A stretch of DNA of 64,000 bases, from assembly GCA_003856375.1 (NCBI GenBank), contig CP034120.1, positions 4,273,501 through 4,337,500 of the forward strand, written 5' to 3'. Made by a program: the position numbers and the translations under genes. A model generated the notes under the pieces. The model was not told the origin of the DNA. It saw nothing but the letters and a program-made list of their open reading frames with translations, and searched no databases. The DNA is from Glaciecola amylolytica. Its GTDB lineage: Bacteria > Bacteroidota > Bacteroidia > Flavobacteriales_D > Crocinitomicaceae. Positions 33,758 through 55,097 of this stretch are shown here, one piece after another. The first letter of the stretch is position 1, and the number at the start of each line of letters is the position of its first letter.

Positions 33758-33814
33758 GTTTCAAAGAATAGATCGGGTTAATTCTTTATTGCTAATTTCG
33801 GAACAATTGAAGTT

Positions 33815-35461: not shown

Positions 35462-35890
35462 TTACAGCACATTTTAGGTGAATCGCAGATTTAATTGATC
35501 AATCAAACCGCATTTAAAGAAGTAGTCTTGATCCCGATGCCTATTTAGGGAAACAAAAAAAAATCAATGCTTTGTATCTGTTAATCAGAATGATATGAAT
35601 CTTAATTTCTGGTGTCAAATATTAAATTCAGATCAAGATTGCATTTTCTTTTGGCAGTTCGATACAGGTATAAAAGATTTTATCTATCATTGTCCTTCTC
35701 TTACCAATCGCTATTTATGAATAAAGTTTACGCAGAAGCGGTAACATTCTTAAATTCAAATACAAAAAACGTATTCAACGATGCTTTTTCCTTACTCTGG
35801 TAAGGGAATGATGCTGTCATGCTTCGATTTTAGATTCATTGATTCTGAGCGGTAGAGAAACTGAATTAGAAACAATTAAAAACAGCAAAC
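35462..35890. other. 429-bp non-coding stretch before the M43 protease gene
   Basis: AT-rich. It holds one 28-codon plus-strand reading frame (35717-35803, beginning MNKVYAEAVTFLNS) ending in a small hairpin (CCTTAC-TCTG-GTAAGG). I see no conserved RNA, no exact TAnnTTTG box and no repeat shared with the rest of the window. It probably holds the protease promoter plus a decayed sequence. Confidence 0.4.
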
Positions 35891-40240: not shown

Positions 40241-40267
40241 ATCAGACAGATTGATTATTGATAATCA

Positions 40268-40299
40268 GAACGCCCGCTTTATGCGGGCGTTCGTTTTTT
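40268..40299 (+). terminator. Rho-independent terminator after the M43 protease gene
   Basis: Perfect 10-bp GC-rich stem GAACGCCCGC/GCGGGCGTTC with loop TTTAT, followed by GTTTTTT. Confidence 0.94.
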
Positions 40300-40391
40300 A
40301 GACTCTGAGGTAAGGTTTCCAATTCTATCAGAGATTTGATAAGTTTATCGCAATTCCTTAAATTCGAAAAGTATTTGCATTTTAGAATTCT

Positions 40392-40754
40392 ATGAGCACA
40401 TCTCCCACACACGACGCGCGCATTGCAAAAATGATCTTTGCTTCCGTTTATCCGCATTATGTCACAAAAGTTGAAAAAAAGGGTAGAACAGTGCAGGAAT
40501 TGCAGCAAGTCATTCAATGGCTTACCGGATTTGATGCAGCGAAACTGCAGGATTTGATCGATCAAAAAGTCACTTTTGAATCATTTTTTGAGCAGGCTGA
40601 CCTGAATCCGAATGCTGAACTGATCACAGGAGTAATTTGCGGTTACCGGATCGAGGAAATTGAAAATCCACTGACCAAAAAAGCGCGCTACCTCGATAAA
40701 TTGGTTGATGAACTTGCCAAAGGCAGAAAAATGGAGAAGATCCTGCGGGCTTAG
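40392..40754 (+). CDS. DUF2200 family protein
   Basis: A 120-residue cytoplasmic protein. It matches the DUF2200 pattern: [22 protein letters not shown] near the N-terminus, VIQWLTGFD, then [20 protein letters not shown] and a basic C-terminus with [17 protein letters not shown]. The family has no established function. A 57-bp gap separates it from the LRR gene on the same strand. Confidence 0.82.
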
Positions 40755-40811
40755 TCATTTGTACTCCTCATCTCAATAAATAAGCTATTTTGGTACTTAA
40801 AATGGCTGCTC

Positions 40812-41498
40812 ATGATCGACGCGGAATTAAAGAAGAAATTGCAAAGCTCCAATCCGGAGGAAGTTGAGCTGGGTTTGCTGCAGGGAAGCAATTCTCCGGA
40901 TATTGCGCCAATCATTGATTTGTTCGAATCCATCTGGAGCATGACTTATGCCGGTAGTTCTGACCCTGAATTCAGCGATATCCAAAAAGGCAGTTTATCC
41001 GGGAAAATAGCGCTCATGAACGAGCAGGAGGATTTGATTCCGGGAGAATTGTCTGAAGTAGGAGAAGTGACTGAATTGGATTTGGGTGGTTTTCCGGAAG
41101 CCATACTTTTTCCGGAACTCTTACGATACAGGAAACTACAAAAACTTCAGCTTTGGGAGAATGAGGTGAAAGTTTTACCGGCTGCATTTTTTGAATTAGC
41201 TCATTTGAACCAACTCTATCTGTCTTGCAACCTGGAAGAACTTCCACCCCTTGTGGAGAAACTGCAGCAATTAAGGATTCTGTCATTACCGGGGAATAAA
41301 ATCAGGCAAATTCCGTCAAGTATTCAAACATTGAGCAAACTGGAAGAACTGGATCTGAGCAATAATCAATTGACAGATCTACCTGTTTTTTTATCCGAAT
41401 TACCGAGTTTAAAGAAGCTATTCGTTCATGGAAACCCGGAGTTGGTATTGACTGAAACAGAAATCTATCGGAAAAAAGGAATTGAGTTGATGGTTTGA
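40812..41498 (+). CDS. Leucine-rich repeat protein
   Basis: A 228-residue cytoplasmic protein without a signal peptide. The first 90 residues are helical and unrecognised. About five LRRs follow (about 95-215), e.g. LQKLQLWENEVKVLP, LRILSLPGNKIRQIPSSI and LEELDLSNNQLTDLP, the short bacterial type with L-P ends. LRRs serve as protein-binding scaffolds; partner unknown. Possibly co-transcribed with the DUF2200 gene. It converges on the acetyltransferase gene with only 20 bp between stops. Confidence 0.8.
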   Translation: MIDAELKKKLQSSNPEEVELGLLQGSNSPDIAPIIDLFESIWSMTYAGSSDPEFSDIQKGSLSGKIALMNEQEDLIPGELSEVGEVTELDLGGFPEAILFPELLRYRKLQKLQLWENEVKVLPAAFFELAHLNQLYLSCNLEELPPLVEKLQQLRILSLPGNKIRQIPSSIQTLSKLEELDLSNNQLTDLPVFLSELPSLKKLFVHGNPELVLTETEIYRKKGIELMV

Positions 41499-41518
41499 TT
41501 ATTTCGAATGTCGTCTGT

Positions 41519-42145
41519 TTAATAAGCATTCATGAGTTCCTGAAATTTGCTGACGAAAAGCCCTACATGATAACCATCCATTAAACCATGATGCGCATGA
41601 ATGGAAACGGGCATAATCGCTTTTCCGTTTTCCCAAAGTACTTTCCCGAAGGAGATTTTGGGAGAACTATCCGCAAATGAAAAACTTCGGGCATGTGAAA
41701 GTGCTGTGAAATGTAACCACGGAACAGCCGAAAAATGAATCACATTTTCCCCTGAAACAGCAGGAACTAAACCTTTTTCACTTCTGACACGGGCAATTAC
41801 CTCGGTTGCCTTGGCATAAAACAAGTGCTCGTCTTCTTCATAATCCATGTAGGCAAAACCAAAAGTTCCGTCTTCTCTGTTAATGGTCGGTGAAGCATTT
41901 ATCCGGTCAAAAACGAATACTTTTCCATTAATAATCCGATAGCGGAATTCCTCTGTTTCGTTCGCCGCTTTCAATGCTTTGTGGAGATAGAGCAAGAAAA
42001 AGGAAAGAGAACTGTTTTTTGCAAAGTTATAGGCCTTTGTAACCTCAATATTCACAGTCACACCGAAGAATGGTTCTTCAAATTGACAAAAGAACTCAAA
42101 ATGTTCCTTTCTTTTCCAGTCAGCTATAGCTAGTTCTCTTTTCAT
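41519..42145 (-). CDS. Chloramphenicol acetyltransferase-like protein (type A CAT fold)
   Basis: A 208-residue acyl-CoA acetyltransferase of the CAT/E2p fold. The catalytic motif HHxxxDG is present as HAHHGLMDGYH near residue 186, and the N-terminus (DWKRKEHFEFFCQFEEPFFG) is typical of the family. Many chromosomal members have not been shown to confer drug resistance, so the substrate is left open. The ATG overlaps the stop of the upstream HAD gene (ATGA), a two-gene operon divergent from a Crp/Fnr regulator. Confidence 0.85.
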   Translation of the reverse strand: MKRELAIADWKRKEHFEFFCQFEEPFFGVTVNIEVTKAYNFAKNSSLSFFLLYLHKALKAANETEEFRYRIINGKVFVFDRINASPTINREDGTFGFAYMDYEEDEHLFYAKATEVIARVRSEKGLVPAVSGENVIHFSAVPWLHFTALSHARSFSFADSSPKISFGKVLWENGKAIMPVSIHAHHGLMDGYHVGLFVSKFQELMNAY

Positions 42146-42834
42146 ATTAAGTGTTTTATGATTTCTTCTATGGAGTTCAATTTCAGGAACCTTTCGTGTT
42201 TCAAATCTGTCGGATGTTCCTCATGCGACCAGGTTATATGATAAGGGATGTGTGCGGCCAATGCGCCTGTTTCCAATACCGGCAAAACATCCGACTTTAG
42301 TGAATTACCCAGCATTAGGAAATGTTCCGGTGCGCAATCCAGCTGCTTCATTAGTTTTTCATAATCAGACACTTTCTTGTCGCTCATGATTTCGATGTGA
42401 TGAAAATAAGTGAGCAACCCTGATTTTTTGAGCTTGCGTTCCTGATCCAGTAAGTCGCCTTTCGTAGCAATAACCAAGCGGTATTTTCCATTTAAGCTTT
42501 TCAATGTTTCTTCTACTCCGGGCAATAACTCAATGGGTTTTTCAAGCAATTCATGCCCGAGTTCAAGAACTTTGGTGATCAATTTCAGAGAAGCCGTTCC
42601 ATCACTTACCCTCACAATTGTTTCCATCATGCACAACATAAATCCTTTGATTCCATAACCATAAAGATTCAGATTCTTCATTTCAGTTTTGAATAGTTCC
42701 TGAGAAACACTGTGCTGTGGCAAATAATCTTCCAATAATCTGCAAAATTGCTTTTCTGCCTCCTGAAAATAGGGCTCATTCATCCACAAAGTGTCATCAG
42801 CATCAAAAGCAATTGTTTTTATGTTTTCAATCAT
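42142..42834 (-). CDS. HAD superfamily hydrolase
   Basis: A 230-residue phosphatase-type HAD protein. Motif I is FDADDTLW (nucleophile D11, acid D13), motif II LVIATKG, a lysine in SDKKVSDYEKL, and motif IV in FLMLGNSLKSDV. The helical cap lies between about 20 and 90. The frame is open upstream to 42915, but MIENIKTIAFDADDTLW at 42834 is the natural start and leaves a proper divergent promoter region. Substrate unknown. Coupled by ATGA overlap to the CAT-like gene. Confidence 0.88.
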   Translation of the reverse strand: MIENIKTIAFDADDTLWMNEPYFQEAEKQFCRLLEDYLPQHSVSQELFKTEMKNLNLYGYGIKGFMLCMMETIVRVSDGTASLKLITKVLELGHELLEKPIELLPGVEETLKSLNGKYRLVIATKGDLLDQERKLKKSGLLTYFHHIEIMSDKKVSDYEKLMKQLDCAPEHFLMLGNSLKSDVLPVLETGALAAHIPYHITWSHEEHPTDLKHERFLKLNSIEEIIKHLI

Positions 42835-42881
42835 TTTATCTAATTTTCTGCAAATTTGAGATTGAATATTTATTTGATAAA

Positions 42882-42893
42882 GGACATTTGTCC
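42882..42893. promoter_or_regulatory. Candidate operator GGACA-TT-TGTCC
   Basis: A perfect 5+5 inverted repeat between the divergent HAD and Crp/Fnr genes, 10 bp before the Crp/Fnr ATG at 42903. Position and symmetry fit autoregulation by the adjacent dimeric regulator. Only two bases separate the arms and no second copy was found, so this is tentative. Confidence 0.3.
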
Positions 42894-42902
42894 CGGGAAA
42901 GC

Positions 42903-43469
42903 ATGTTAAGAACAAATCAATCCTTTTTGGCTTACATTGAACAGCTCTATGAGCAGCAAAACTCCGTGGGCGAAATCTCGGTAAAATCGTTTCGTGCCGG
43001 GCAGAGATTGCTCAATCAGGGAGAACAATCGTATCACATTATGCTCATAAAGGAAGGAGTTGCCAAATGTTTTCTGACGGAAGAAAATGATAAGGAATAC
43101 ATCCTTGAATTTTTAGGAAGTGGTGAGATTATCGGTGAAATTGAAGCTATTCGAAACATTTCATGCCTGTGTAACATCGAAGCGATGACTGCTGTTTCTG
43201 TCTATTCTTTTCACAAAGAAACCTTTTCCCGATTGCTGAAAAAGGATATTCAGTTAAACAACCTGCTCATTGAAGCATTTGCCGAACGGATTATCAATAC
43301 TTCGAGCCGGGCATCCTTTCAGCAATTGTATACGATAGAACACAGTTTGTCGAAATTACTGGAACTTCAATCCAGGCAGGATTTGAGCTTATCTAAAGAG
43401 GATATGGCTTCCTATCTGGGAATTACATTGAGAAGCCTTAACCGGGCTCTGGAGAACTTAAAACACTAG
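42903..43469 (+). CDS. Crp/Fnr family transcriptional regulator
   Basis: 188 residues from ATG 42903; the frame extends upstream across the divergent gene, but that part is a shadow. The cyclic-nucleotide-binding-like beta barrel is at about 22-115 (FRAGQRLLNQGEQSYHIMLI, GSGEIIGEIEAI), then a dimerisation helix and a C-terminal HTH (LSKEDMASYLGITLRSLNRALENL). No Fe-S cysteines as in FNR, and the cAMP-contact residues are not conserved, so the ligand is unknown. Divergent to HAD-CAT across 68 bp, it is likely to regulate them. Confidence 0.9.
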   Translation: MLRTNQSFLAYIEQLYEQQNSVGEISVKSFRAGQRLLNQGEQSYHIMLIKEGVAKCFLTEENDKEYILEFLGSGEIIGEIEAIRNISCLCNIEAMTAVSVYSFHKETFSRLLKKDIQLNNLLIEAFAERIINTSSRASFQQLYTIEHSLSKLLELQSRQDLSLSKEDMASYLGITLRSLNRALENLKH

Positions 43470-43483
43470 AAAAAGTGCGACAT

Positions 43484-43521
43484 AAAAAGAGGGGACGCGA
43501 TGCATCGTGTCCCCTCTTTTT
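43484..43521. terminator. Bidirectional terminator between crp-like and SIMPL genes
   Basis: A 38-bp near-perfect palindrome: arms AAAAAGAGGGGACGCGATG and its complement with one G-U pair. Flanking A and T runs allow termination on both strands, for the two convergent genes. Confidence 0.9.
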
Positions 43522-43546
43522 AGAATGTATTGTATCAACTATTTTC

Positions 43547-44263
43547 TTAATCAATAAACCAAACCAGTGTTACTGACTCCTGTAGTTCGATTTCCTGTGG
43601 AGCAAAACGCAAATCCGCACCATCTGAAAGTCCAGCCTCTGCAAACATTCTGTTGTCTGCTGATTTGTAGTAAACCGGTGGTCCGTAACTTTCACTTCCG
43701 TAAATGATTGACTTAACTGCTCCCATTTTCACGCCTGCCGCTGTAGAAAGGTTAGTCGCTTTTTTACGTGCATCAGCTACCGCTTTAGCCTGAAGTTCAG
43801 CTTCTGTTTTTTCACGTAGTGCATCAGAAAGGTAAAAACCAATGTTGAAATCGATCGGATCTTTTGCCTCTGAGAAACGTGCTGCAATTTTCTGCAAAGT
43901 TGCCTGACTGTAAGCAAATTTAACCGTCAGGTTTTGAGAAACCACGTAACCGCTGTCAATTGCACCATTCTGACGGTAAACTCTGTTTTTAGAAGCAGAA
44001 TAGTTGGTTGTTTTCACATCTGATTCCTGAAACCCGAGCTGCTTCAGAATTTTCAAAAATTGCTGAGTTTGATCACCGATTGCTTTCGTGGCATCTGCCA
44101 TGTTCATTTTCACAGACGAAAGATGAATGTTCAGCTCTGTCATATCGGGAACAATAGAACCTTTGGAAGTTCCATTTACAGTAACTGTAGGTTTCGAAGC
44201 GTTTTCTGTCTGTCCGAACAATGTTCCTGAAGTCAGGAATAAAAATAAAATGAGCTTTTTCAT
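43547..44263 (-). CDS. SIMPL domain (DUF541) exported protein
   Basis: 238 residues from ATG 44263 (an upstream in-frame TTG adds two). Signal peptide MKKLILFLFLTSGTLFGQ. The remainder is one SIMPL/DUF541 domain: VTVNGTSKGSIVPDMTELNI at the start, VVSQNLTVKFAY, KAVADARKKATNLSTAAGVK and the closing VTLVWFID. Members are periplasmic or outer-membrane proteins; E. coli YggE is linked to oxidative stress, though no mechanism is settled. Single gene. Confidence 0.9.
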   Translation of the reverse strand: MKKLILFLFLTSGTLFGQTENASKPTVTVNGTSKGSIVPDMTELNIHLSSVKMNMADATKAIGDQTQQFLKILKQLGFQESDVKTTNYSASKNRVYRQNGAIDSGYVVSQNLTVKFAYSQATLQKIAARFSEAKDPIDFNIGFYLSDALREKTEAELQAKAVADARKKATNLSTAAGVKMGAVKSIIYGSESYGPPVYYKSADNRMFAEAGLSDGADLRFAPQEIELQESVTLVWFID

Positions 44264-44555
44264 GATCAATTTTTGTTTGTGTTAATATAAATGTACTGAT
44301 CAATAAGCAAGACCTGTGCCAATTCAGGCGGAAACTTTGAGGATAAAAAACAAAAAAACTTAAAAAAAGCTTTTCAATCAGGGTAAAAAGCAGAGTATCA
44401 GAGTATCAGTGATGAGCGAAATTTTCCAATTTTTGGAGGAGAATCCGGAGGAAATTGTGAGGATTTCCTTTGTTTCTTCTTTCAATACGCTTTTGTGAAC
44501 CTAATGTCAGAGATTTCTAACTATTTGATGGAGGATTTAAATTCACTAGAAAACT

Positions 44556-45161
44556 TTATTTCTTTGGTTTAGGTGCTTTGGATAAGTACATCTTGATATC
44601 CTGCCGTAAAATTTTCATTGCTGTCTCTCTTGTTATAAGAAGTTTGCTATCCTGTGGAATAGAAGTATACTGAAACCAATAATTATTTTCATTTAAGGGA
44701 AATATATTTTCAGGAAGCTCATTTATTCTAACAAAATTCGGATGCCCGCTTGGTGTCTCTTCACATGATATATACGATACGCCATTATTACTTTTCATAG
44801 TCATATCTTTTCTGTGATTAATTGATGGAAACAAATCATGCCCCTCAATGTATAGAAATCCAAAGTTTGACTTTCTGGAATAGGCGGAAAGAACAATATA
44901 ATGTACAGAATCTACTTTGAACAAACAGTTATCATATAACCAATCATATCCTGCATTTTTCAACTCCTCCATAATGATAGGTACAACATCATTTAATCTA
45001 AGCCAGTCAGTTGATACAAATGGAGTTCCCAAATTTGGATTCTTTCCTTTTGAATAATAATCATAATAATTGCTAGTATCAACTTTAAGATTGATGTCCT
45101 CCTGTCCAAAAGCTATGTTCCTAATAAAAAGAAGTATAAAAATGATAGTGTTTTTCATCAT
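44556..45161 (-). CDS. Exported protein of unknown function
   Basis: About 201 residues. Starts at one of two adjacent ATGs (45161 or 45158). A signal peptide (MKNTIIFILLFIRNIAFGQ) is followed by a mixed alpha/beta protein with YDWLYDNCLFKVDSVHYIVL and an aromatic-rich C-terminal half. No known family recognised. It is more AT-rich than genes left of 44 kb, like the NACHT gene next to it, and may be part of the same acquired segment. Its signal peptide argues against it being a cytoplasmic partner of that protein. Confidence 0.6.
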   Translation of the reverse strand: MMKNTIIFILLFIRNIAFGQEDINLKVDTSNYYDYYSKGKNPNLGTPFVSTDWLRLNDVVPIIMEELKNAGYDWLYDNCLFKVDSVHYIVLSAYSRKSNFGFLYIEGHDLFPSINHRKDMTMKSNNGVSYISCEETPSGHPNFVRINELPENIFPLNENNYWFQYTSIPQDSKLLITRETAMKILRQDIKMYLSKAPKPKK

Positions 45162-45164
45162 CAA

Positions 45165-45509
45165 AAGATTTAAAGATAACAGTTAGTTTATTAAACTATT
45201 TAAACAGCTTAATAGAATTTCTCATGATTCTCATTCTCCGCTCTCATTCTTAAAAAGAAAAGTCAGGTAGAATGAGACTGAGAACGAAGTACAAAAAGAA
45301 AGCCTCAACGAAAAAATCGTCAAGGCTTTTCTTTTAGTGATGATCCTAATGAGAGATATTTCGAACTGTTTAATAGAAGATTTGAGAAGAATCCAGTAGC
45401 AACTTTATTCTAAGTCTGGGAGTGTTCAACGGTTTTGCGTTCAGGTGAGTTTCGGAGTACCAAGCTGTCAAGTTACAATTGAATTTGAATCCCCCTTTGT
45501 TGGGCGTAA
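45165..45509. other. 345-bp non-coding stretch downstream of the SIR2-NACHT gene
   Basis: AT-rich. It contains an imperfect inverted repeat of CATTCT words (around 45225-45285), a terminator-like hairpin at 45295-45334, and about 90 bp of less AT-rich sequence just before the NACHT stop codon. No gene is supportable here. Confidence 0.4.
45295..45334 (-). terminator. Terminator-like hairpin downstream of the SIR2-NACHT gene
   Basis: Arms AAAGAAAGCCTCAACG and CGTCAAGGCTTTTCTTT pair with a small mismatch/bulge around an A-rich loop. On the minus strand the stem is followed by TTTCTTTTTG. It lies about 175 bp beyond the stop at 45510, so it could end that transcript. Confidence 0.5.
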
Positions 45510-48500
45510 TTATTTATTTATTAATCTCTTATTTATACTTTTTTCAATTTCTTCAATAGCTACGTATGCATTATTTCTTAATATTAAGTTTTCACTTTTC
45601 AACAAAGGTATCAACTTCTCTATCGCAAACTCTTCGTCTCCAATTTTTCCTATTATTGATGTAGCGTAATTCCTATAGTTAACTTTTTCTTTGGTCATTT
45701 CTTCAAATAACCAATTTATAGTTTGATCTGTAAAGTCCTTCTTCTTTATTTCTAGTAAAGATACTATAGACAAGATTTTATGCCTCAACTCATATTTACT
45801 ATCATTAACTTTATCTAAAATAATGGACTTAGTATGTTTCGTGCATAAACTTAAAAATCTAGGAACAGAGTAATACCAGTAAAAAATATCATTTCTTTCT
45901 ATTGATTCCTTTTTCATAAGTGTTTCCCAATTTACTAGTAAAAACCTGCATACGTCTTCATCTATATAGTTTGAGATATTGTCCGATTCATTTGAATAAT
46001 TTTCAATAATGAATCTATTACGCAATTCATCATTTTTGTTTATGAGTGGAATTATTTCTTTGCTAAAATCTGAAATATTTAAAAAGAGACTTTGATGCAG
46101 TGCTATTTCATATTCAGGCCTAAAATCAACTAAATGCTCTAGAATTACTTCTTTAGCAGATTCGTAATATCTTTCGAAAACAATATTTGCTAAATTTATT
46201 TTCAAAGAACCATTTTGAACTGTTTTCATTAACTCATAAGCTTTTTCAATAACCTTATCTGACTTTAAATCTTTAAGATAACTTGCAAAGTAAGAACCAA
46301 TCGAATTACTTTCAAGGTTACTAAATGATTTATCAATAATTTCTTGTGATGAAATAGTTTCCTTATTATAAGGCCAACTTTTACCACCAAGACAGTGAAT
46401 AGCTTCTTTTTTTAAATCATCATTAGAGTCATCAAGCAAACTAGATAATATACTAACGACTTCAGGAGAATCTTTTCCTTCTAAAAGTTTGACTGCAATT
46501 AGCTTATCTTTTTTAATATCAGAAGCTAACATTTCTTTAATTTGAAATAAATAAAAAATTGTATCAAAACAACTTAATATATATGCAACATTAGATATTA
46601 ACAGCTCCTTAGAATCTACATCTTGGATTTCTTTTGTTTTATTTATTAATATATGTAAAATTGTATTGTCCTTATATTCGATAAGAGCTTTAGCATACCC
46701 ACTTGGGTAGCTATTCCCTTTTTCGAACAAGCACTCTATGATTTTTGCTATACTTTCTTTGTGATTAGTTTTAGCAATACAGTAAGCTACTTCTCCACCA
46801 ATGTCATCATCATCAATAAAATCAATAAGATTAAGCAAGTATTGCTGATCAGAAATGATTTTACTTATCAACCAACCTAAACGGCTTTTCTTATTCAATA
46901 TTAAATTTGTGTCATTGAGACGTAAAAACAATTGCTCTATAAGAATTTCCTTTATAGATAAATCTTTTATCGAGGCAAATTCATAAATTGAATAAGCATA
47001 GAATATATCTTTTATTACAATCTCTTCAATTACTTTTTTAGCTTTTTCCACATCTAATAGAGATACAAACAACATCATTGTTTCGTCCCATCTAGAATCA
47101 ATAATTTTTTCGTCAATAATAGATTTATCAGCAGCATATAGTTTTGTAAGATGATACGCAGATAGAAATTCCAAAATAGTCTGATGTACAAATCCTATTT
47201 TACCTTCTCCATCAGGTAAAAGAACTTTCTTTGAAACCAAAATGTTAAATAGTTCATTTTTATTATATCCTGATGATTCAATTTGTTTAAGGATTTGATT
47301 AGGATCAATATTTATCTCCCCTAAATTGGTGAGTTTATAACCAATACTTGCAAATAACTCTAAAAAGTTAATATTATACCCATACTCTCTATTTATGCTG
47401 TCATCTATGGAAACAAAATATTTATTAATTAAAAGTTTAGCTGTTACTTGACTTAAGTCCTCTTTTGTTATATAGTCAATAAATAACTTAAAAAAGAAAG
47501 GACTAGATAAGTTATATAGGAGCTGAGTCGAAATTTCCTCAGTTTTTAAATTCTTTTCTTCTAAAGCATTAGTTAAGTAACTGCGGTTAAGTCTTTCTAT
47601 TTCAAAAACTGGAAAATCTAAAAATGACAAATAATTTAAACTTCTTGTCGATAAAAGTATCTTATTTAATGAATACTGTTCAATAAATTCTTTAAGATTT
47701 TGTTCAAAGAATTTTGTTTCATGATATTCTTTAGGTATTTCATTAACTGCATCAATTACAATAGTATACAATCCACCTTTCAAAGTTTCTTCTTTGTCAA
47801 CTGTGATCGGTAAAGAAGATTTAATTAAATCTATTATACTACCACTATATTCTTTACATTGTATAAATACAGGAATTGAATTTTTTGCAAAATCATCATC
47901 AACAATATCTCTTGATTCAATAGCAATTTGCGATGTAAAATATTCTAAAGATGTCGATTTTCCTGAACCTGGTTCTCCAACAATTATTAACCTATTATTA
48001 GATTTTAATGCTTCACCGATAGGGATATATTTTTTTATTTTTGGTTCATCTAATTTATTGTTTGGACTAATTAAGACTCCATCTAGGTTAAAGATTTTTA
48101 CATTTCTAGATTGGAAACCAAATACTTTCGTATCACAATACCTCAATAGAGCCAATTTGCTTGAGCTAGACAGTTCAATATTCAAATTATCTTTTTGATT
48201 TTTGACATATTCATTTAAATCATTTAAGAGTTCAATTAAATTATGGTGCTTGTGTCCTTCCTCTTTCTTGGTTGGATAAGAAACTAGCGTTATACCATAA
48301 TTCTTGTGCCAAAACTTTCTTTCTAGATCAGTAACATCAGACATAACTGCAAAATGTTGTCTATTCCCTCCTTTATAAGTTTCAGCGATAAAGTCTTTAA
48401 TCAAGAGAAATGTCGGGTCCGTCAAACCAAACCCAAGGTATAAAACAGGTCTTTGAATTAACAAATGCTTAAGTGTTTCAATAGTCGATTCCATATTATA

Positions 48501-49052
48501 TCTAATTCTTCTATAGTCCTCTTGGGTGAGAATTATTGAGTCTACATTATTCATGTCTCCATGCGGTTTAAATATAAATTTGGAAGAAGAATGTTTTTGA
48601 ATGGAGGCTTGCTCAATGGGCTGATCATTATTGACCTGTCTTAGCATTAAACCATTATTTAACTTCTGGTATGTGATTTCAATAAGAGAATCATAGTTTG
48701 TTGTAATATAGCAATCAGAGCCTAATGATATTATTAATTCATGTACTTTATGTGGTTTAAGATTTCTGTCAAAAAATTCTTCTCTAATGAATTCTGCAAA
48801 ATCACCATCTGTTGATAAAGATTTACAATAGCTTGCAGCAATAAGCAAATCTCCGTTATTAATTACGCTAAGAATCTCTTCTTTTTCTTTTTCGTCACAT
48901 AAACCTCTATTTTCAAGAAACTTGGAATAGTCTTTTAGAAGTTCGTACCATGATGGAGCTCCAGACCATGTAGATATACCTGAACCGATAAAAAGTACAC
49001 ACTCCTTTGAGTTTATTGATTCAATCAGAGATTTTGGGAATTGATATTTCAT
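45510..49052 (-). CDS. SIR2-NACHT-HEAT STAND ATPase, probable antiphage NLR-like protein
   Basis: 1180 residues, cytoplasmic. (i) SIR2-type domain (about 1-290): nucleotide loop VLFIGSGIS (19-27), TTNYDSL with N119 and D121, catalytic-type His164 in FKPHGD, and LGFGLTD. (ii) NACHT/STAND ATPase (about 310-560): Walker A GEPGSGKST with K365, Walker B TIVIDAVNE near 425-433, sensor ILLSTRS, and a winged-helix/helical end with FVHQTILEFLSAYH. (iii) HEAT-like alpha repeats (about 640-1180), e.g. KEAIHCLGG and IVSLLEIKKKD. Related architectures (Avs5-type SIR2-STAND proteins, bacterial NACHTs) sense phage proteins and deplete NAD+. That role is inferred here. It is conspicuously AT-rich against its neighbours, with no obvious TAnnTTTG promoter. 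Confidence 0.88.
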   Translation of the reverse strand: MKYQFPKSLIESINSKECVLFIGSGISTWSGAPSWYELLKDYSKFLENRGLCDEKEKEEILSVINNGDLLIAASYCKSLSTDGDFAEFIREEFFDRNLKPHKVHELIISLGSDCYITTNYDSLIEITYQKLNNGLMLRQVNNDQPIEQASIQKHSSSKFIFKPHGDMNNVDSIILTQEDYRRIRYNMESTIETLKHLLIQRPVLYLGFGLTDPTFLLIKDFIAETYKGGNRQHFAVMSDVTDLERKFWHKNYGITLVSYPTKKEEGHKHHNLIELLNDLNEYVKNQKDNLNIELSSSSKLALLRYCDTKVFGFQSRNVKIFNLDGVLISPNNKLDEPKIKKYIPIGEALKSNNRLIIVGEPGSGKSTSLEYFTSQIAIESRDIVDDDFAKNSIPVFIQCKEYSGSIIDLIKSSLPITVDKEETLKGGLYTIVIDAVNEIPKEYHETKFFEQNLKEFIEQYSLNKILLSTRSLNYLSFLDFPVFEIERLNRSYLTNALEEKNLKTEEISTQLLYNLSSPFFFKLFIDYITKEDLSQVTAKLLINKYFVSIDDSINREYGYNINFLELFASIGYKLTNLGEINIDPNQILKQIESSGYNKNELFNILVSKKVLLPDGEGKIGFVHQTILEFLSAYHLTKLYAADKSIIDEKIIDSRWDETMMLFVSLLDVEKAKKVIEEIVIKDIFYAYSIYEFASIKDLSIKEILIEQLFLRLNDTNLILNKKSRLGWLISKIISDQQYLLNLIDFIDDDDIGGEVAYCIAKTNHKESIAKIIECLFEKGNSYPSGYAKALIEYKDNTILHILINKTKEIQDVDSKELLISNVAYILSCFDTIFYLFQIKEMLASDIKKDKLIAVKLLEGKDSPEVVSILSSLLDDSNDDLKKEAIHCLGGKSWPYNKETISSQEIIDKSFSNLESNSIGSYFASYLKDLKSDKVIEKAYELMKTVQNGSLKINLANIVFERYYESAKEVILEHLVDFRPEYEIALHQSLFLNISDFSKEIIPLINKNDELRNRFIIENYSNESDNISNYIDEDVCRFLLVNWETLMKKESIERNDIFYWYYSVPRFLSLCTKHTKSIILDKVNDSKYELRHKILSIVSLLEIKKKDFTDQTINWLFEEMTKEKVNYRNYATSIIGKIGDEEFAIEKLIPLLKSENLILRNNAYVAIEEIEKSINKRLINK

Positions 49053-49430
49053 AGTATTTAGTATAGATTCTTGAATTTCTATCTCGATTAATTAAGCCCA
49101 ACTTACATATAAGCGCAAGTTTAATTACTTACGACTAAGTAAATTCGATTTTCAAACGGATTCTAAGAAATCTTTGTGAAAAGTTTTAGTTACGTTATTG
49201 CTCCAATACTACACAATAATTCTGAAAAACAATTCACTGTTTAAAAATTCCCAAAAAGAAATTTTACCTGAAACCCAATTGGATTCGAACGACTTTGATT
49301 AGATCAAAAAACACAATAAAATCAACGGTTTTCAACAGATTTTGCTTTGCCACCTTCCCTCTCAGGGAGGAAACAGAATTGAAGCTTCGAACACCTTAAT
49401 TTACTCCTCGGAACAAAAATTGATACCTGT

Positions 49431-49649
49431 TTAACGAATTTCTCCAGCGGACACTCGCCCAATTACACGATCCGAAGATCTCAAAGAGTACTCGAAGTTG
49501 TCACCCGTCCTTCCAAACGGTTCTAAGAAGCGATAAGTTGCTAGTGCGGCTGCCAATCCCGGAAAGTGCTTGTCATTTGGGATCCTGATCCCTTCTTTCC
49601 TGGGATAGGCCCGCACAGGCAACTTAGCTGAACGCCGTAATTGGGCCAA
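49431..49649 (-). pseudogene. Short open frame in a GC-richer relic-like segment
   Basis: A 72-codon frame with only a TTG start (MAQLRRSAKLPVRAYPRKEG...). It stays open upstream through the hairpins towards the tRNA terminator, reading LLFAKAEKVGKTALAQLRRS. The peptide is basic and Arg/Pro-rich and resembles no known domain. It could be a decayed gene end or the translated part of a dispersed repeat; I doubt it is a functional gene. Confidence 0.3.
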
Positions 49650-49689
49650 GGCAGTTTTGCCTACTTTTTCTGCCTTGGCAAAAAGTAGG
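49645..49689. repeat. Two mutually exclusive perfect hairpins
   Basis: Hairpin 1 pairs GCCAAGGCAG (49645-49654) with CTGCCTTGGC (49670-49679). Hairpin 2 pairs CCTACTTTTT (49660-49669) with AAAAAGTAGG (49680-49689). The loop of hairpin 1 contains the left arm of hairpin 2, and the loop of hairpin 2 is exactly the right arm of hairpin 1, so only one can form (or a pseudoknot). Confidence 0.6.
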
Positions 49690-49716
49690 AGAATATGGGA
49701 TGAAATCTTTTGGAAA

Positions 49717-49743
49717 TAAAAAAGGGAAGCGAAAGCTTCCCTT
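49717..49743 (-). terminator. Rho-independent terminator of tRNA-Arg
   Basis: Stem AAGGGAAGC/GCTTCCCTT with a four-base loop. On the minus strand it is followed by a T-run and begins one base after the tRNA discriminator base. Confidence 0.9.
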
Positions 49744-49744
49744 G

Positions 49745-49818
49745 TGACCCCGGAGGGATTCTAACCCCCGACCGCTGGAGCCGAAATCCAGTGCTCTATA
49801 CAGCTGAGCTACGGAGCC
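49745..49818 (-). tRNA. tRNA-Arg (anticodon TCG)
   Basis: A 74-nt cloverleaf on the minus strand. Acceptor GGCTCCG pairs with CGGGGTC (two wobbles), discriminator A. D arm AGCTCAGCTGTATAGAGC. Anticodon stem CTGGA/TCCAG around loop TTTCGGC, giving anticodon TCG for CGA/CGG codons. T arm GGGGG/CCCTC with loop TTAGAAT (TTCGAAT is the usual form). The 3' CCA is not encoded. It is followed directly by a terminator. Confidence 0.93.
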
Positions 49819-49853
49819 GGTACAACTAAAAATAGCTGTTCTTTTATTTTGGT

Positions 49854-49899
49854 CCGGTGCTTTATACTCCCGATTGATATCGGGATGAGCTACGGAGCC
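49854..49899 (-). pseudogene. Broken tRNA-Arg 5' half with palindromic insertion
   Basis: On the minus strand it reads GGCTCCGTAGCTCA, then 18 inserted bases, then GTATAAAGCACCGG. This equals the 5' half of the intact tRNA (GGCTCCGTAGCTCA-GCT-GTATAGAGCACTGG) with two changes and GCT of the D-loop replaced by TCCCGATATCAATCGGGA, a 7-bp-stem palindrome. The 14 bases 49886-49899 are identical to the tRNA 5' end. It ends 35 bp upstream of the intact gene. Confidence 0.75.
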
Positions 49900-49972
49900 T
49901 TTTAAACCGCTTATTTAACGGTTCAGATCCCAAAAATAGTTCCTTTTTTTACTTCTCTTGCGAATTTTCCAA

Positions 49973-49980
49973 TAATTTTG
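49973..49980 (+). promoter_or_regulatory. -7 promoter-like box before porZ
   Basis: TAATTTTG fits TAnnTTTG. It abuts an ATG at 49981, so if used the transcript would start after that ATG and translation would begin at ATG 50014. Confidence 0.4.
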
Positions 49981-50013
49981 ATGAGTTTGCGTTTATACAC
50001 CAAAACAATTTTC

Positions 50014-52332
50014 ATGCGAAACGCTCTTTTAATAGCTTCAATCGTTTTTTCTTCTTCCGCATTTTCCCAACTTGGAATGGGACAATGGCGCATGCATGTT
50101 TCAGCGGCACAAGCCGTTGATGTGGCTTATGGTAATGGTTTGGCAATGGCTGCCCTGAAAACCGGAGTAATAGAATACGATGAAGCGGCAGGAGAGAGCA
50201 AAATTTACAATGATCAAAACGGACTTTCCGATATCCTGGCTTCCTGTATCATTTACGAACCGGGAACGAAATCCTTTTTTATCGGGTATGACAATGGAAA
50301 CATTGATCAATTGTATGCCGATGGAACGATTGTAAATATTCCGGCGGTTAAATTGGCAACAGTTACGGGAAATAAGCGGATCAACAGCTTTACGATCAGA
50401 AACGGGAAGGTTTTTGCGGCAACAGGATTCGCGGTCATTGTTCTGGATCCGGTAAAACATGAAGTAAAGGATACGTATAATCCGTTTTCAATGCCTAAAA
50501 ACTATCAGTCCGTATTGTTTCTGAATGATTCGATTTATGCGTTGCATAATGACGGGATGGTAAAAGCACTTGAAAACAACTTCCTGTTGGGAAATCCGAA
50601 TAACTGGTATGTTGATGCACGCGTGGACGTTCCTGCATTGGATGTGTCGTATCACAGTGCCGCGATTTACAATAATGAGTTTTATGTTCTGGTAAAAAAG
50701 GAGGCTTATGGTGGAGATTCCATTATGAAAGTAACTCCAACAGGTTTGCAGACATTTATCGGAGCTGATTTTAGTATGGAAATTCAGAAATTCCAGGTCG
50801 TGAACAACAAATTCGGAGTCAGCTTTTCGGATACTTACATGCTTTTTAACGAAGATTTATCCATTTTCTTCGGGATTTCCAGTTATTCGAACCCTGCTCC
50901 TGAAATTCGTTCGGTTGTCTACGACGGAACGAGCTATTGGGTCGCAGATTATAAGAATGGTCTGGTGAAGTATGATGTTTTTGGAAATGCAAAGATTATT
51001 TCCACGGAAGGCCCTCCGAAAAATGATTTCTTCAGTATTACCGGTCAGGATGGGAAAATAGTCGTTACCGGTGGTACGATTGACCGAATCCAATTGAATT
51101 ACAGTCTTGCCGGAGCGTATACCATGAAAGACGAAACCTGGACCTTGTTTGACAAGGCAACTCAGGCGCCCAAATGGGATAATAATACCTGGGCAATCGG
51201 ATCTGCAGCAATTAATCCGAAGGATATAGAAGAAATTGCTCTGGGAGGATACTGCGCAAATGGTTTGAGTATTGCCCACGGAAATCAGATTACGGATGTG
51301 TACAATGCTTCTAACTCCATTCTTGAAAATACAACGGTCGGGAACAATCAGATGTGTATTACCTCATTGGAATATGACGAAGATGGAAATCTTTGGATCG
51401 GAAATGCCTATTCCATGAAACCGTTGAAAGTAAGAATGGCCGACGGAACCTGGTATGAAATGGCTACTCCGAATACTGCTTCTTCCGTTTTCATAACGAA
51501 GCTGGCAATTGACTATAACGGAAATAAATGGATGGGTGTTTATGGAAAAGGTTTGATGGGATACAACGACAACGGATCGATTTCCAATACGGCTGATGAC
51601 CAGACGAAACTCATGCAGCCCGGAGCAGGTTCCGGAAATATGCCTTCCAATAATGTAACGGCTTTGGCTGTTGATTTTGACAATGAAATCTGGATCGGTA
51701 CGGACAACGGATTAGCTGTTCTCTACAACAGTGCCGGTATTTTCAATGCTTCCGGAACGACAGATGTTTCGCGCATTCTGGTAACGTATGACGGAAACGT
51801 GGAAATCCTTTTGGGGAATTCATACATTTCCGATATTGAGGTTGACGGAGGAAACAGAAAATGGATCGGAACTGCAGAGTCAGGAGTGTTTTTGGTTTCT
51901 GCCGACGGACAGGAAGTGATTGCAAATTTCAACAAAGACAATTCACCGATGATTTCCAACAACGTATTGGACATGGAATTCAATCATTTGACCGGAGAGT
52001 TATTCATTATTACAGACAACGGAATGGTTTCTTACCGTGCAGATGCCACTTATGAAGACAAGGAATACGCTTCAACGGTTGTTTTCCCGAATCCTGTTAA
52101 ACCGGATTATTTCGGACCGGTTACCATTCAGGGAATCAAGTACGGAAGTGACGTGAAAATTACGGATGCAGCAGGAAATCTGGTCTACAAGACAACTTCC
52201 AATGGTGGAACAGCTACCTGGAACGGAAAAAGATTGACAGGCGAAGACGTGAGCTCCGGAGTTTACTTCATTTGGACCGCTCCTACAGAAGGAAAAGGGA
52301 AAAAAGTAGGTAAAGTGGTTGTCATTCGATGA
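50014..52332 (+). CDS. porZ: PorZ-like T9SS protein (two beta-propellers plus sorting domain)
   Basis: About 772 residues. I chose ATG 50014 because MRNALLIASIVFSSSAFSQ is a compact signal peptide; ATG 49981 would add 11 residues. After LGMGQWRMHVS come two-component-regulator-type propeller blades (GLAMAALKTGVIEYD, LWIGNAYSMK, IWIGTDNGLAVLYN, KWIGTAESGVFLVS). The C-terminal sorting domain starts at about 690 (VVFPNPVKPDYFGPVTIQG). Architecture and direct overlap with recO are those of PorZ, the component of the T9SS attachment complex (with PorU/V/Q) that handles A-LPS for anchoring cargo. The ATGA overlap couples it to recO. Confidence 0.82.
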   Translation: MRNALLIASIVFSSSAFSQLGMGQWRMHVSAAQAVDVAYGNGLAMAALKTGVIEYDEAAGESKIYNDQNGLSDILASCIIYEPGTKSFFIGYDNGNIDQLYADGTIVNIPAVKLATVTGNKRINSFTIRNGKVFAATGFAVIVLDPVKHEVKDTYNPFSMPKNYQSVLFLNDSIYALHNDGMVKALENNFLLGNPNNWYVDARVDVPALDVSYHSAAIYNNEFYVLVKKEAYGGDSIMKVTPTGLQTFIGADFSMEIQKFQVVNNKFGVSFSDTYMLFNEDLSIFFGISSYSNPAPEIRSVVYDGTSYWVADYKNGLVKYDVFGNAKIISTEGPPKNDFFSITGQDGKIVVTGGTIDRIQLNYSLAGAYTMKDETWTLFDKATQAPKWDNNTWAIGSAAINPKDIEEIALGGYCANGLSIAHGNQITDVYNASNSILENTTVGNNQMCITSLEYDEDGNLWIGNAYSMKPLKVRMADGTWYEMATPNTASSVFITKLAIDYNGNKWMGVYGKGLMGYNDNGSISNTADDQTKLMQPGAGSGNMPSNNVTALAVDFDNEIWIGTDNGLAVLYNSAGIFNASGTTDVSRILVTYDGNVEILLGNSYISDIEVDGGNRKWIGTAESGVFLVSADGQEVIANFNKDNSPMISNNVLDMEFNHLTGELFIITDNGMVSYRADATYEDKEYASTVVFPNPVKPDYFGPVTIQGIKYGSDVKITDAAGNLVYKTTSNGGTATWNGKRLTGEDVSSGVYFIWTAPTEGKGKKVGKVVVIR

Positions 52333-53036
52333 AAACGACAGACAAAGCCATTGTTTTATCGCGTTTGTCTTATTCGGAATCAAGCCTGATCGTCAATTTA
52401 TTTACCCTTGAAGCAGGTCTTCAGACCTTTCTTTTTCAGGGAGCCAAAAAGAAAAAAGGATTGATTTTGTTTCCTCTGGAATTGGTTGAAATCGCCTATT
52501 ACAAACGAAACGACAGCAGTTTAATGAAATTGACGGAGATGCAGGCTTTGGAGCCTTTGCATCATTTGCTGGACAATCCTTTGAAATCGAGTATCGCTTT
52601 TTTCATATCAGAGTTAATGATGAACTGCCTGCGCGACAATCATCAGGACAAACGTCTGTTTCAATTTTTAAGTGAAGAAATTCAGTGGTTGAATCTCAGT
52701 GAAGAATTGAGTAACTACCTGATTTGGTTTCTGGCTCAGATCTCTAAACTGGAAGGTTTTCAGCCGGAAATTCAGAATGTAAATCCGCGTTATTTTGAAT
52801 TGCAGGAAGGGAAATTCACAAACGAATTGCCTTTTTTGCCTTCTTATCTGGAAGAATCCTGGCTGCATTGGCTCACAGATAGTTTACGTTTGGAGAAAAC
52901 GGATTTTCTGGCAGTTTCTATCCCGAAAGAAGAACGCGTAAAATTGATCGATGCCTGGTTGGAATATTACCAGTTTCACGTCAGCGGAATGAGGAAAATG
53001 AAGTCTTTGGAAGTGATCCGGACAGTCTTCAATTAA
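52329..53036 (+). CDS. recO: DNA repair protein RecO
   Basis: A 235-residue recombination mediator that helps load RecA with RecF/RecR. The N-terminal OB fold begins KTTDKAIVLSRLSYSESSLIVNLFT and includes GAKKKKGLILFPLELVEI. The C-terminal helical domain has no four-Cys zinc finger, as in other short Bacteroidota RecO. The ATG overlaps the porZ stop (ATGA). Its stop overlaps that of the convergent ABC-F gene by four bases. Confidence 0.93.
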   Translation: MKTTDKAIVLSRLSYSESSLIVNLFTLEAGLQTFLFQGAKKKKGLILFPLELVEIAYYKRNDSSLMKLTEMQALEPLHHLLDNPLKSSIAFFISELMMNCLRDNHQDKRLFQFLSEEIQWLNLSEELSNYLIWFLAQISKLEGFQPEIQNVNPRYFELQEGKFTNELPFLPSYLEESWLHWLTDSLRLEKTDFLAVSIPKEERVKLIDAWLEYYQFHVSGMRKMKSLEVIRTVFN

Positions 53037-54670
53037 TTCTTCCTTTCAATTTCCTTCAGATTTTCCATCTTTTTAGCAGCAAGGAATCCGTTGATATCGT
53101 CAAAGTGAGTTTTTACCCGCTTGTTCCCGAATTCATATACTTTGGTAGCCAGTCCGTCTAGGAAATCACGGTCATGTGAAACCAGAATCAACGTTCCGTC
53201 AAAAGCATTCAGGGCATCTTTGATAATATCCTTGGTTTTCATGTCCAAGTGGTTCGTAGGCTCATCGAGAATCAGCAAATTGACAGGTTCAAGCAATAAC
53301 TTGATCAGAGCCAAACGCGTTTTTTCTCCCCCTGACAGTACTTTTACCTTTTTGGTGGAAGAATCCCCACCAAACATGAAAGCGCCCAGCAAATCCTTTA
53401 TTTTGGTGCGTACGTCGCCTTCTGCAATGCGGTCGATGGTTTCGAAAATGGTCAATTCCTCATCAAGCAAAGAAGCCTGATTTTGGGCAAAATATCCGAT
53501 TTGAATGTTGTGTCCCAATTCCAGGTTGCCGTCAAAACCGATTTCTTTCATGATTGCTTTCACCAACGTCGATTTTCCTTCACCGTTTCTTCCAACGAAA
53601 GCAACCTTTTCACCGCGCTCAATGGTCACATTCACATCGTTGAAAACAACATGATCTCCGTATTTCTTACTCATTTCAGTAATAACCACTGGATAGGAAC
53701 CGGAACGTGGAGCAGGAGGGAACTTCAGGCGCAAAGCAGAATTGTCCACTTCATCCACTTCAATGATTTCCAGTTTCTCCAGCATTTTCACACGCGATTG
53801 AACTTGAAGCGTTTTGGAATAAGTTCCTTTGAAGCGCTCAATGAATTCGGTTGTTTCAGCAATGAATTTTTGCTGTTCTTCGTATTGCTTCTGCTGCTGG
53901 GTTCTGCGGTCTTTACGCAGTTCCAGATAATGCGAATATTTGGCTTTGTAATCGTAAATACGGCCCATCGTCACTTCAATAGTCCGGTTGGTAATCGCAT
54001 CTACAAACGCACGGTCGTGGGAAATGACCACCACGGCTTTCGCGCTGTTGATTAAGAAATCTTCCAGCCACTGAATGGATTCGATATCCATGTGGTTGGT
54101 AGGCTCATCGAGTAGAATCAGATCGGGTTTTTGAAGAAGGATTTTTGCCAGTTCGATCCGCATTCTCCATCCACCGCTGAATTCCGACGTGGGTCTTGTG
54201 AAATCTTCCCGTTCGAAGCCCATTCCTTTCAGTACTTTTTCAACTTCGCCGTCGTAGTTGATCTCTTCGATGGAATAGAATTTTTCGCTCAGTTCGGAAA
54301 CGCGCTCGATGAGCTTCATGTAATCATCCGTGTCATAATCCGTTCGAACGGTAAGTTCCTGATTCAATGCTTCAATTTCATCGCGCATAGCGAAAATTCC
54401 GGCAAAAGCTTTGCTGGTTTCTTCAAAAACAGTGCAATTATCTTCAGTCAATAAATGCTGCGGTAAATAAGCAATCACGGCATCTTTCGGAGCCGAAACG
54501 CCTCCTTTGGTTGCTTTGTTCACTCCGGCCAGAATTTTGAGCAAAGTAGATTTCCCCGCACCATTTTTCCCCATCAGTGCAATTTTGTCCGTGTCATTGA
54601 TCACAAAAGACACATCGCTGAACAAAACTTTACCACTAAACTCTACCGTTACACTATCAACTGAAATCAT
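53033..54670 (-). CDS. ABC-F family ATPase (ribosome-associated)
   Basis: 545 residues with two ABC domains and no TM segments. Walker A motifs GKNGAGKSTLL (about 35) and GRNGEGKSTLV (about 355). Signatures SGGWRMRIELAKILL and LSGGEKTRLALIKLL. Walker B/D-loops LILLDEPTNHMDI and LLILDEPTNHLDM. A basic linker of about 80 residues (RTQQQKQYEEQQKFIAE) joins the domains. ABC-F proteins bind the ribosomal E site and tune translation or give antibiotic tolerance; this one resembles the YbiT type most, a weak assignment. It has a good TACCTTTG promoter. Confidence 0.92.
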   Translation of the reverse strand: MISVDSVTVEFSGKVLFSDVSFVINDTDKIALMGKNGAGKSTLLKILAGVNKATKGGVSAPKDAVIAYLPQHLLTEDNCTVFEETSKAFAGIFAMRDEIEALNQELTVRTDYDTDDYMKLIERVSELSEKFYSIEEINYDGEVEKVLKGMGFEREDFTRPTSEFSGGWRMRIELAKILLQKPDLILLDEPTNHMDIESIQWLEDFLINSAKAVVVISHDRAFVDAITNRTIEVTMGRIYDYKAKYSHYLELRKDRRTQQQKQYEEQQKFIAETTEFIERFKGTYSKTLQVQSRVKMLEKLEIIEVDEVDNSALRLKFPPAPRSGSYPVVITEMSKKYGDHVVFNDVNVTIERGEKVAFVGRNGEGKSTLVKAIMKEIGFDGNLELGHNIQIGYFAQNQASLLDEELTIFETIDRIAEGDVRTKIKDLLGAFMFGGDSSTKKVKVLSGGEKTRLALIKLLLEPVNLLILDEPTNHLDMKTKDIIKDALNAFDGTLILVSHDRDFLDGLATKVYEFGNKRVKTHFDDINGFLAAKKMENLKEIERKN

Positions 54671-54690
54671 ATTTTCCGATTTTGGAAGTG

Positions 54691-54698
54691 CAAAGGTA
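54691..54698 (-). promoter_or_regulatory. -7 promoter box of the ABC-F gene
   Basis: On the minus strand TACCTTTG exactly fits TAnnTTTG, 20 bases before the ATG at 54670. Confidence 0.6.
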
Positions 54699-54735
54699 CT
54701 GACAACTTTGGACTTCGCAGAATTTCAGAATACAA

Positions 54736-54769
54736 AAAAGGTTACCCGGCGAAAGAAGAGTAACCTTTT
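54736..54769 (-). terminator. Terminator after the small membrane protein gene
   Basis: 10-bp stem AAAAGGTTAC/GTAACCTTTT with a 14-nt loop. On the minus strand it is followed by a T-run. It lies 47 bp past the stop at 54816. Confidence 0.85.
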
Positions 54770-54815
54770 GGTTATTGGTGTAAAGGTGATCAAGTAGGAG
54801 CAGGCTTTGGAATTG

Positions 54816-55097
54816 TTATACGAGGAAGACGACGATGAGGTCAACCAAAACCGTTACAATGAATAGGTTCATGATCCATTTCATAGGTGCCACGGCCAAT
54901 AGCAAACTAAGAGTTGTCATGGTTGGTATTACAACTGCAATCAAAGACCATGTATGGAGTGCAGCGCCGTAACTCATAGTAACACCGCCCAAACAACCTA
55001 TAATTAGTAAAGTGATTGCAATAACACCAAATCGATATTCACTTGCCAGATTCTCCAGCTTCATCCAGGTGCTTTGTTTTATTTCCTGTGTTTTCAT
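54816..55097 (-). CDS. Small membrane protein of unknown function
   Basis: 93 residues from ATG 55097 (an in-frame TTG at 55121 would add eight). A 25-residue amphipathic N-terminus (MKTQEIKQSTWMKLENLASE) is followed by three hydrophobic segments: VIAITLLIIGCLGGVTM, WSLIAVVIPTMTTLSLLLAV and WIMNLFIVTVLVDLIVVFL. No family I can name. It has its own terminator, and a GAACTTTG box (one mismatch to TAnnTTTG) lies just upstream, so it is probably a real monocistronic gene. Confidence 0.68.
   Translation of the reverse strand: MKTQEIKQSTWMKLENLASEYRFGVIAITLLIIGCLGGVTMSYGAALHTWSLIAVVIPTMTTLSLLLAVAPMKWIMNLFIVTVLVDLIVVFLV

Follow-up and report, generated by a model that had tools for sequence, protein, structure and literature searches.

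A rare SIR2-NACHT-HEAT protein, probably an NLR-like defence receptor, encoded by a horizontally moved gene of Glaciecola amylolytica

Results

An intact gene for a three-part protein

We analysed a 64,000-nucleotide stretch of the Glaciecola amylolytica genome (contig CP034120.1, positions 4,273,501 to 4,337,500), hereafter the window, whose numbering is used throughout except where a locus is cited by its L number. On its minus strand lies a real, intact coding gene (45510-49052) for a protein of 1180 residues that joins an N-terminal SIR2-like domain, a NACHT-type ATPase and a C-terminal HEAT-type solenoid. This protein is likely to be a one-protein defence receptor that resembles the NOD-like immune receptors of animals (NLR-like) and would deplete NAD+ when its arm contacts an invader protein. 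The gene itself has moved horizontally, as a single gene.

The frame fills the interval exactly, with 1180 codons between an ATG start at 49052 and a stop at 45510-45512. On the plus strand, frame 1 carries stops throughout and the longest listed frame within the gene span has 134 codons. The genome (one contig, 4.6 Mb) holds a single copy. When 84,980 species genomes were scanned by a search that picks up close relatives only, Saonia flava (68% identity) and Bizionia algoritergicola (67%) each proved to have a full-length orthologue. All three proteins have 1180 residues and align over 1180 columns without a gap, and the ratio of nonsynonymous to synonymous substitution rates (dN/dS) did not exceed 0.29 in any domain for which a value was obtained (3 of 24 values could not be computed, synonymous sites being saturated). 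Given two gap-free orthologues of the same length and this low dN/dS, the frame is not a chance one. The original prediction, made from the sequence of the window, had called one 1180-residue protein between these coordinates without naming a strand, and both ends proved exact.

The SIR2 domain keeps the active-site residues of ThsA

Residues 1-290 (48183-49052, minus strand) form the SIR2-like domain, with predicted NADase activity. Pfam SIR2_2 (PF13289) matched residues 114-255 above the Pfam cut-off (E 6.5e-26), and phmmer comparison with solved structures related the domain to 7uxt (1.6e-18), ThsA 6lhx (7.5e-16) and DSR2 8k98 (8.1e-14). In an alignment to ThsA, N119, D121 and H164 fall opposite N112, D114 and H152. 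The codon of N119, in T-T-N119-Y-D121, is at 48696-48698 and that of H164, in H164-G-D, at 48561-48563 (both minus strand); all three residues are unchanged across the orthologues, as is K365 of the ATPase. The account of DSR2 in PMC11263360 treats ThsA N112, D114 and H152 as catalytic-pocket residues equivalent to DSR2 N133, D135 and H171, with the asparagine and the histidine, corresponding to DSR2 N133/H171, as the catalytic dyad. The profile match, the ThsA alignment and the invariance of these residues bear out the intact SIR2-type domain that had been predicted around N119/D121 and H164. By analogy with its relatives, the domain is expected to act as an NADase and probably destroys cellular NAD+.

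The ATPase is of NACHT type and the arm is a HEAT solenoid

The P-loop ATPase core spans residues 341-500, approximately (47553-48032, minus strand), with Walker A GEPGSGKS, which includes K365, at residues 359-366 (47955-47978) and Walker B TIVIDAVNE at residues 430-438 (47739-47765); K365 and TIVIDAVNE stand where they had been predicted as parts of a NACHT/STAND ATPase. A helical and winged-helix segment follows (residues about 501-660; 47073-47552, minus strand), with FVHQTILEFLSA at residues 621-632. GEPGSGKS with K365, IDAVNE, an S-T-R and FVHQTILEFLSA are invariant in the three orthologues, and we take all four to be marks of NACHT. Four NACHT relatives from related genomes, each above the Pfam NACHT cut-off, carry an invariant D-G-x-D-E at the place of the Walker B motif and an invariant F-x-H-x-x-F-x-E-Y in the winged-helix segment. 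When residues 296-701 were compared by hhalign, the alignment scored 98.4% over 150 columns with these four proteins and, with two Mrr-NACHT proteins, 96.5% over an alignment of 321 columns that takes in the winged-helix motif; the two sets overlap by one protein, and their rows were picked as search matches of the window protein or its profile, so that the comparison shows kind, not independence. When the three orthologues were scanned singly to E 1, every one of them matched the NACHT model as well as SIR2_2 and HEAT_2, the best NACHT value being 4.4e-5.

In contrast, the same region aligned with three SIR2-nSTAND5 proteins at 9.8% over 23 columns, at the P-loop alone, which rules out an ATPase of the SIR2-nSTAND5 type (TPR repeats were seen in both of the three that were read to their ends). 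Profile-profile comparison and motifs together thus place the ATPase with NACHT and not with nSTAND5. The SIR2 domains of those three proteins nevertheless align with that of the window protein at 98.1%. Among the fetched proteins, those nearest to the effector are thus not those nearest to the switch, and the protein appears to be recombined from modules already known.

The C-terminal solenoid (residues about 661-1170; 45543-47072, minus strand) matched Pfam HEAT_2 in two stretches above the cut-off (best 843-889, E 2e-8), and phmmer aligned alphaRep chains with residues about 1110-1169; HEAT_2 and HEAT_EZ were the only repeat models listed to E 1. A fold search with residues 619-1004 of the whole-protein AlphaFold model found HEAT/ARM solenoids at Z up to 16.8 (329 residues, root-mean-square deviation (rmsd) 6.0), and an alphaRep, an artificial protein, reached Z 14.0 (265 residues, rmsd 7.4), values only moderately telling for helical repeats; as the search was confined to about these residues, the absence of other families there is uninformative. 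The HEAT assignment is sound, since fold match and sequence matches to HEAT_2 and alphaRep agree. With the SIR2_2 and HEAT_2 matches and the NACHT-type profile match and motifs, the three-part NLR-like build that had been proposed holds.

Purifying selection appears strongest on the SIR2 domain and weakest on the repeats. Invariant sites make up 77% of the SIR2 domain (1-290), 65% of residues 341-500 and 50% of the repeats (661-1100), with Fisher p 2.4e-13 for SIR2 against repeats (three sequences only, sites taken as independent). This unevenness is as expected of a fixed effector and a changing sensor, and the solenoid is the probable sensor. As had been suggested, a HEAT tail might go with a different trigger. 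As the orthologues share 67-68% identity and differ most in the repeats, they are suited to asking, by sensor swaps, what the arm recognises.

A rare addition to a known kind of defence protein

No PADLOC or NCBIfam model spans the whole protein. Many bacterial NACHT (bNACHT) defence proteins bear a TIR or Sir2 effector according to a review (PMC10952713), so the kind is already known. The window protein shares with bNACHT the order of N-terminal effector, central NACHT and C-terminal sensor, including the Sir2 effectors reported there (PMC10952713), and differs in its HEAT-type sensor and in a NACHT score under the Pfam cut-off. Mrr-NACHT and SMEK-NACHT proteins of Bacteroidota (L072, L135, L065, L134) have a related ATPase module behind another N-terminal effector.

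Avs5, to which the protein had been likened as a SIR2-STAND protein, also combines a SIR2_2 effector, a STAND ATPase and C-terminal helical repeats in one chain; its immunity requires both an active SIR2 domain and the lysine of Walker A, and by a section title of the same source it cannot be activated without its C-terminal repeat domain (PMC12931631). As described there, however, Avs5 has nSTAND3 with TPR, Sel1-like or PPR repeats (PMC12931631), whereas the window protein has a NACHT-type ATPase and HEAT. Pfam nSTAND3 (PF20720) reached 19.7 bits against a cut-off of 27.2, over residues 346-375 only, that is, 30 residues around the P-loop (it matched two of the three orthologues, best E 6.9e-5), and no TPR, Sel1-like or PPR model was listed to E 1. 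The Avs5 family is ruled out on these grounds; the analogy stands and the membership does not.

DSR2 likewise consists of SIR2 plus HEAT repeats, yet the DSR2 domains described in PMC11263360 include no ATPase. The Dsr2 profile was not listed to E 1 for the window protein, which rules out that family, in contrast to L068, which matches it at 8.1e-235 over nearly its whole length. DSR1 is ruled out as well, the Dsr1 profile covering residues 5-286 only (2.4e-20), whereas L069 matches it over residues 1-1216. The top PADLOC match was ThsA, through the SIR2 domain (1.5e-33). That match comprises residues 4-244 and profile positions 8-230 of 478, which rules out the ThsA family; besides, ThsA works with a ThsB partner and the window protein is single and large.

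We conclude that the protein appears to be a rare addition to a kind already known, with bNACHT as its nearest group, and neither an Avs5, a DSR nor a ThsA. Among the papers listed in our literature searches, no title or opening of an abstract described the SIR2-NACHT-HEAT architecture, and we do not claim its absence from print; no paper joined EruA and NACHT, and 'SIR2-STAND' was found in the Avs5 paper alone. The family would couple a DSR2-like HEAT arm, an NLR-like NACHT switch and a predicted SIR2 NADase, and in this it bears on how sensor type relates to trigger.

A proposed mechanism and its alternatives

STAND receptors are established to sense with their arm, to switch and oligomerise through the ATPase and then to fire the effector. 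By this logic, the HEAT solenoid would keep the NACHT switch closed at rest. Binding of an invader-made protein, most likely of phage, to the solenoid would let the ATPase swap its nucleotide and the protein oligomerise; SIR2 domains brought together in this way would hydrolyse NAD+, and shutdown or death of the cell would halt phage growth. The NADase activity, the nucleotide-driven oligomerisation, the phage sensing and the abortive outcome are all extrapolated from ThsA, DSR2, Avs5 and bacterial NACHT proteins. An antiphage role had been thought probable from the start and is a reasonable supposition.

Several observations weigh against such a receptor. The family is represented here by three sequences only, and, as said, no system model covers the protein from end to end. 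No recognisable defence gene was seen, by eye, next to the gene. Pfam NACHT scored only 12.9 bits on the window protein (E 0.099, residues 355-471) against a cut-off of 26.7, so that of the three profiles proposed as a check SIR2_2 and HEAT passed their Pfam cut-offs and NACHT did not. The AlphaFold models are weak, with a mean predicted local distance difference test score (pLDDT) of 45.1 for the whole protein and 47.3 for residues 296-701. Models this poor allow no fold claim for SIR2 or NACHT, and the structure prediction that had been suggested as a further check supports the HEAT-type solenoid and leaves the other two folds unconfirmed.

Two alternatives are, in our view, unlikely and about equally so. 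In the first, the protein would work as DSR2 does: within a preformed oligomer the HEAT arm would bind a phage structural protein and free SIR2 directly, the ATPase serving as a mere checkpoint. DSR2 chains are among the matches of the SIR2 domain (8k98, 8.1e-14), and DSR2, also SIR2 plus HEAT, forms its partner-binding cavities from HEAT and C-terminal domains as PMC11263360 describes them; however, the same source gives DSR2 an HTH and a helix-bundle domain where the window protein has a conserved ATPase, Dsr2 is missing from the PADLOC matches to E 1, and the Dsr1 match covers residues 5-286 only. In the second, the trigger would be plasmids, other mobile elements or host stress and not phages. 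The sequence names no trigger, and the gene has itself moved between genomes, but the proteins with related SIR2 domains, ThsA, DSR1, DSR2 and Avs5, act on phages as reported in PMC10952713 and PMC12931631.

Against both, we prefer the NLR-like receptor triggered by phage, and we prefer it more strongly still over two further readings. Classical sirtuins are protein deacetylases, and the SIR2 domain might likewise modify proteins, or produce a signal, without NAD+ depletion; this is improbable, as the domain is of the SIR2_2 type with ThsA-like NADases nearest. The gene's rarity, with the own genome alone holding it at full length in the four sets of related genomes sampled, might suggest a decaying, functionless remnant, but this is very improbable in view of the full frame, the intact motifs, the length shared with two orthologues and the low dN/dS wherever computable.

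Relatives and rarity

In four samples around the own genome (own genome included), any match at all was found in 4/59, 22/395, 15/399 and 19/395 genomes, with at most two candidates scored per genome in the samples of 395, 399 and 395; outside the own genome, each listed match covered only part of the SIR2 or ATPase region. The viral contigs searched held no relative, phage records gave one partial match, and none of the 194 plasmid records with a match carried 80% of the query in one place.

SIR2_2 itself is common, with 119 of 375 genomes of the phylum carrying it, own genome included. It is joined to NB-ARC in L063 (a congener) and L138 (elsewhere; NB-ARC by Pfam) and to nSTAND5 and TPR in the proteins of L132 and L133. 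A strict Walker A pattern was found in three of 30 SIR2_2 loci retrieved (the own gene, L153 and L157; no frame was picked in another three). This count is too low: it misses the NB-ARC protein of L138 and also L140, which represents the L066 gene and shows weak STAND matches, and no locus extends more than 1500 bases beyond its SIR2 match. In one set of fetched proteins, the best non-orthologue SIR2 match (1.1e-39) came from a differently built protein of 752 residues (L071:3635-5893, minus strand), whose C-terminus matches PADLOC PD-T4-6 (7.1e-8). A related SIR2 domain also occurs in L119, L131:2275-3192, where the reported match crosses two stop codons; a 305-residue open frame covers most of that match and may be a short intact gene.

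The gene probably moved alone into a variable site

At 28.2% the G+C content of the gene is well under the 40.5% of the window, and its orthologues have 26.7% and 26.2%. When window positions 40001-55000 were compared with either orthologue locus, the only match beyond the gene was one of 44 bases with the Bizionia locus (L025), at the tRNA-Arg genes of both. What the Saonia and Bizionia loci have in common is the gene with about 45 bases of upstream and 20 of downstream sequence; three further short matches (98, 118 and 53 bases) are not in corresponding positions.

To the right, the flank is kept in the genus: the gene of a 784-residue protein is present in 14 of 14 genomes (own included) and tRNA-Arg (TCG; 49744-49818, minus strand) in six of seven congener stretches. 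The DNA to the left of the tRNA varies between congeners. There, window positions 33001-49089 are unmatched in six of seven congener stretches, the seventh matching only the distant 33023-34683, and by eye the genes differ from one congener to another. Such a pattern agrees with a single gene having been acquired next to a tRNA gene, at a place that varies.

A dispersed repeat directly upstream

Between the gene and the tRNA, directly upstream of the gene, lies a dispersed repeat (49091-49358) with nine matches in the own genome, itself included (40 of 61 candidates scored), and one to five in six congeners. In the stretches read (loci L106-L112 among the copies' loci), copies lie at most 300 bases upstream of an outward frame of at least 100 codons in 10 of 11 cases in the own genome (window copy included) and in 12 of 13 cases in congeners; of random positions in the own-genome stretches, 20% are so placed. 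The repeat might be a mobile leader, a regulatory region shared by these genes, or else a long site of recombination.

Two genes with SIR2-type domains lie near other copies. One own-genome locus (L106:8695-16048, about 930.7-938.0 kb) holds a type I restriction system, HsdM, HsdS and HsdR by Pfam, with a gene for a 392-residue SIR2_2 protein between hsdS and hsdR; repeat copies stand on both sides of the system, with other genes in between. In a congener (L111:5553-9745), three A+T-rich genes are parted by repeat copies, like a cassette array. The middle gene is small and SIR2-like (SIR2_2 E 3e-6), and the first has exact complementary ends of the kind described below.

Cassette-like ends

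The gene is bracketed by two exactly complementary 7-base ends, GTTGGGC (49096-49102, minus strand) 50 bases before the ATG and GCCCAAC (45499-45505, minus strand) four bases after the stop. In the two orthologues the pair is GTTGTGC, 45 (Saonia) and 48 (Bizionia) bases before the start, and GCACAAC, seven bases after the stop. Complementarity is thus exact in all three orthologues, with the window pair differing from the other two on both sides at once; the Saonia and Bizionia ends may share ancestry, so that the three cases are not independent. Such GTT-/-AAC ends recall the cores of integron cassettes. Summed over five sets, exact ends were found on 15 of 345 frames (own genome 2/103, congeners 3/89, Saonia 3/21, Bizionia 2/18, other Bacteroidota stretches 5/114) against 3.2 expected, about 1% of frames, when upstream and downstream ends were mismatched at random.

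Tentatively, the receptor may travel as a single gene cassette, in an integron-like system of Bacteroidota that lacks a recognised integrase and stocks immune receptors, one of them of 3.5 kb. This idea rests on complementary ends in three unrelated flanks, on the ends of other accessory genes and on the fixed orientation of the dispersed repeat, and it would, if true, show Bacteroidota passing on large immune receptors one gene at a time. Defence cassettes in Bacteroidota were not described among the matches listed in our literature search. With one mismatch allowed there was no excess in the own genome (5/103 against 4.8 expected) and little in congeners (9/89 against 6.1). Against the idea, the integron integrase model TIGR02249 passed its cut-off in none of 14 genus genomes nor in Saonia and Bizionia (0/2), some congeners having partial matches of up to 115 bits, under the cut-off. 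An attC-like hairpin candidate upstream of the Saonia gene folds well (z -6.1 from 40 shuffles, cores 6 of 7), but we found no convincing one at the window gene, nor was the Bizionia candidate convincing. Finally, no copy of the dispersed repeat lies on the 3' side of the SIR2-NACHT-HEAT gene. It is possible that the 7-base ends are a short inverted repeat of other origin.

Exact complementary ends were also seen on other genes. Two accessory genes of Saonia flava have them (L024:20200-20844 and 21059-21808), as do two congener genes that adjoin the dispersed repeat (L046:13300-14154 and L111:5577-6263) and three adjoining genes of a same-family genome with GTT-/-AAC ends (L076:4265-9796), one for a 429-residue SIR2 protein; the third end pair of L076 is a near-palindrome and may be due to chance. 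Downstream of the Saonia orthologue lies a pair of 216-base repeats, 93% alike (L024:13915-14130 and 18873-19088). A 53-base match links the end of another Saonia gene with the end of the Bizionia receptor gene (L024:21797-21847 and L025:13527-13579) and is perhaps a shared 3' end of cassettes.

Neighbouring sequences

Between repeat and tRNA, an open stretch on the minus strand (49430-49650) has by eye the look of a coding remnant, and a congener (L043) has a counterpart of 49570-49695 at 83%. On the other side, within the same low-G+C stretch, a gene of 31.5% G+C (44556-45164, minus strand) encodes a 202-residue, probably secreted protein. Farther out lie genes on the minus strand for what are presumably a chloramphenicol-acetyltransferase-type protein (41519-42145) and an ABC-F-type ATPase (53033-54670).

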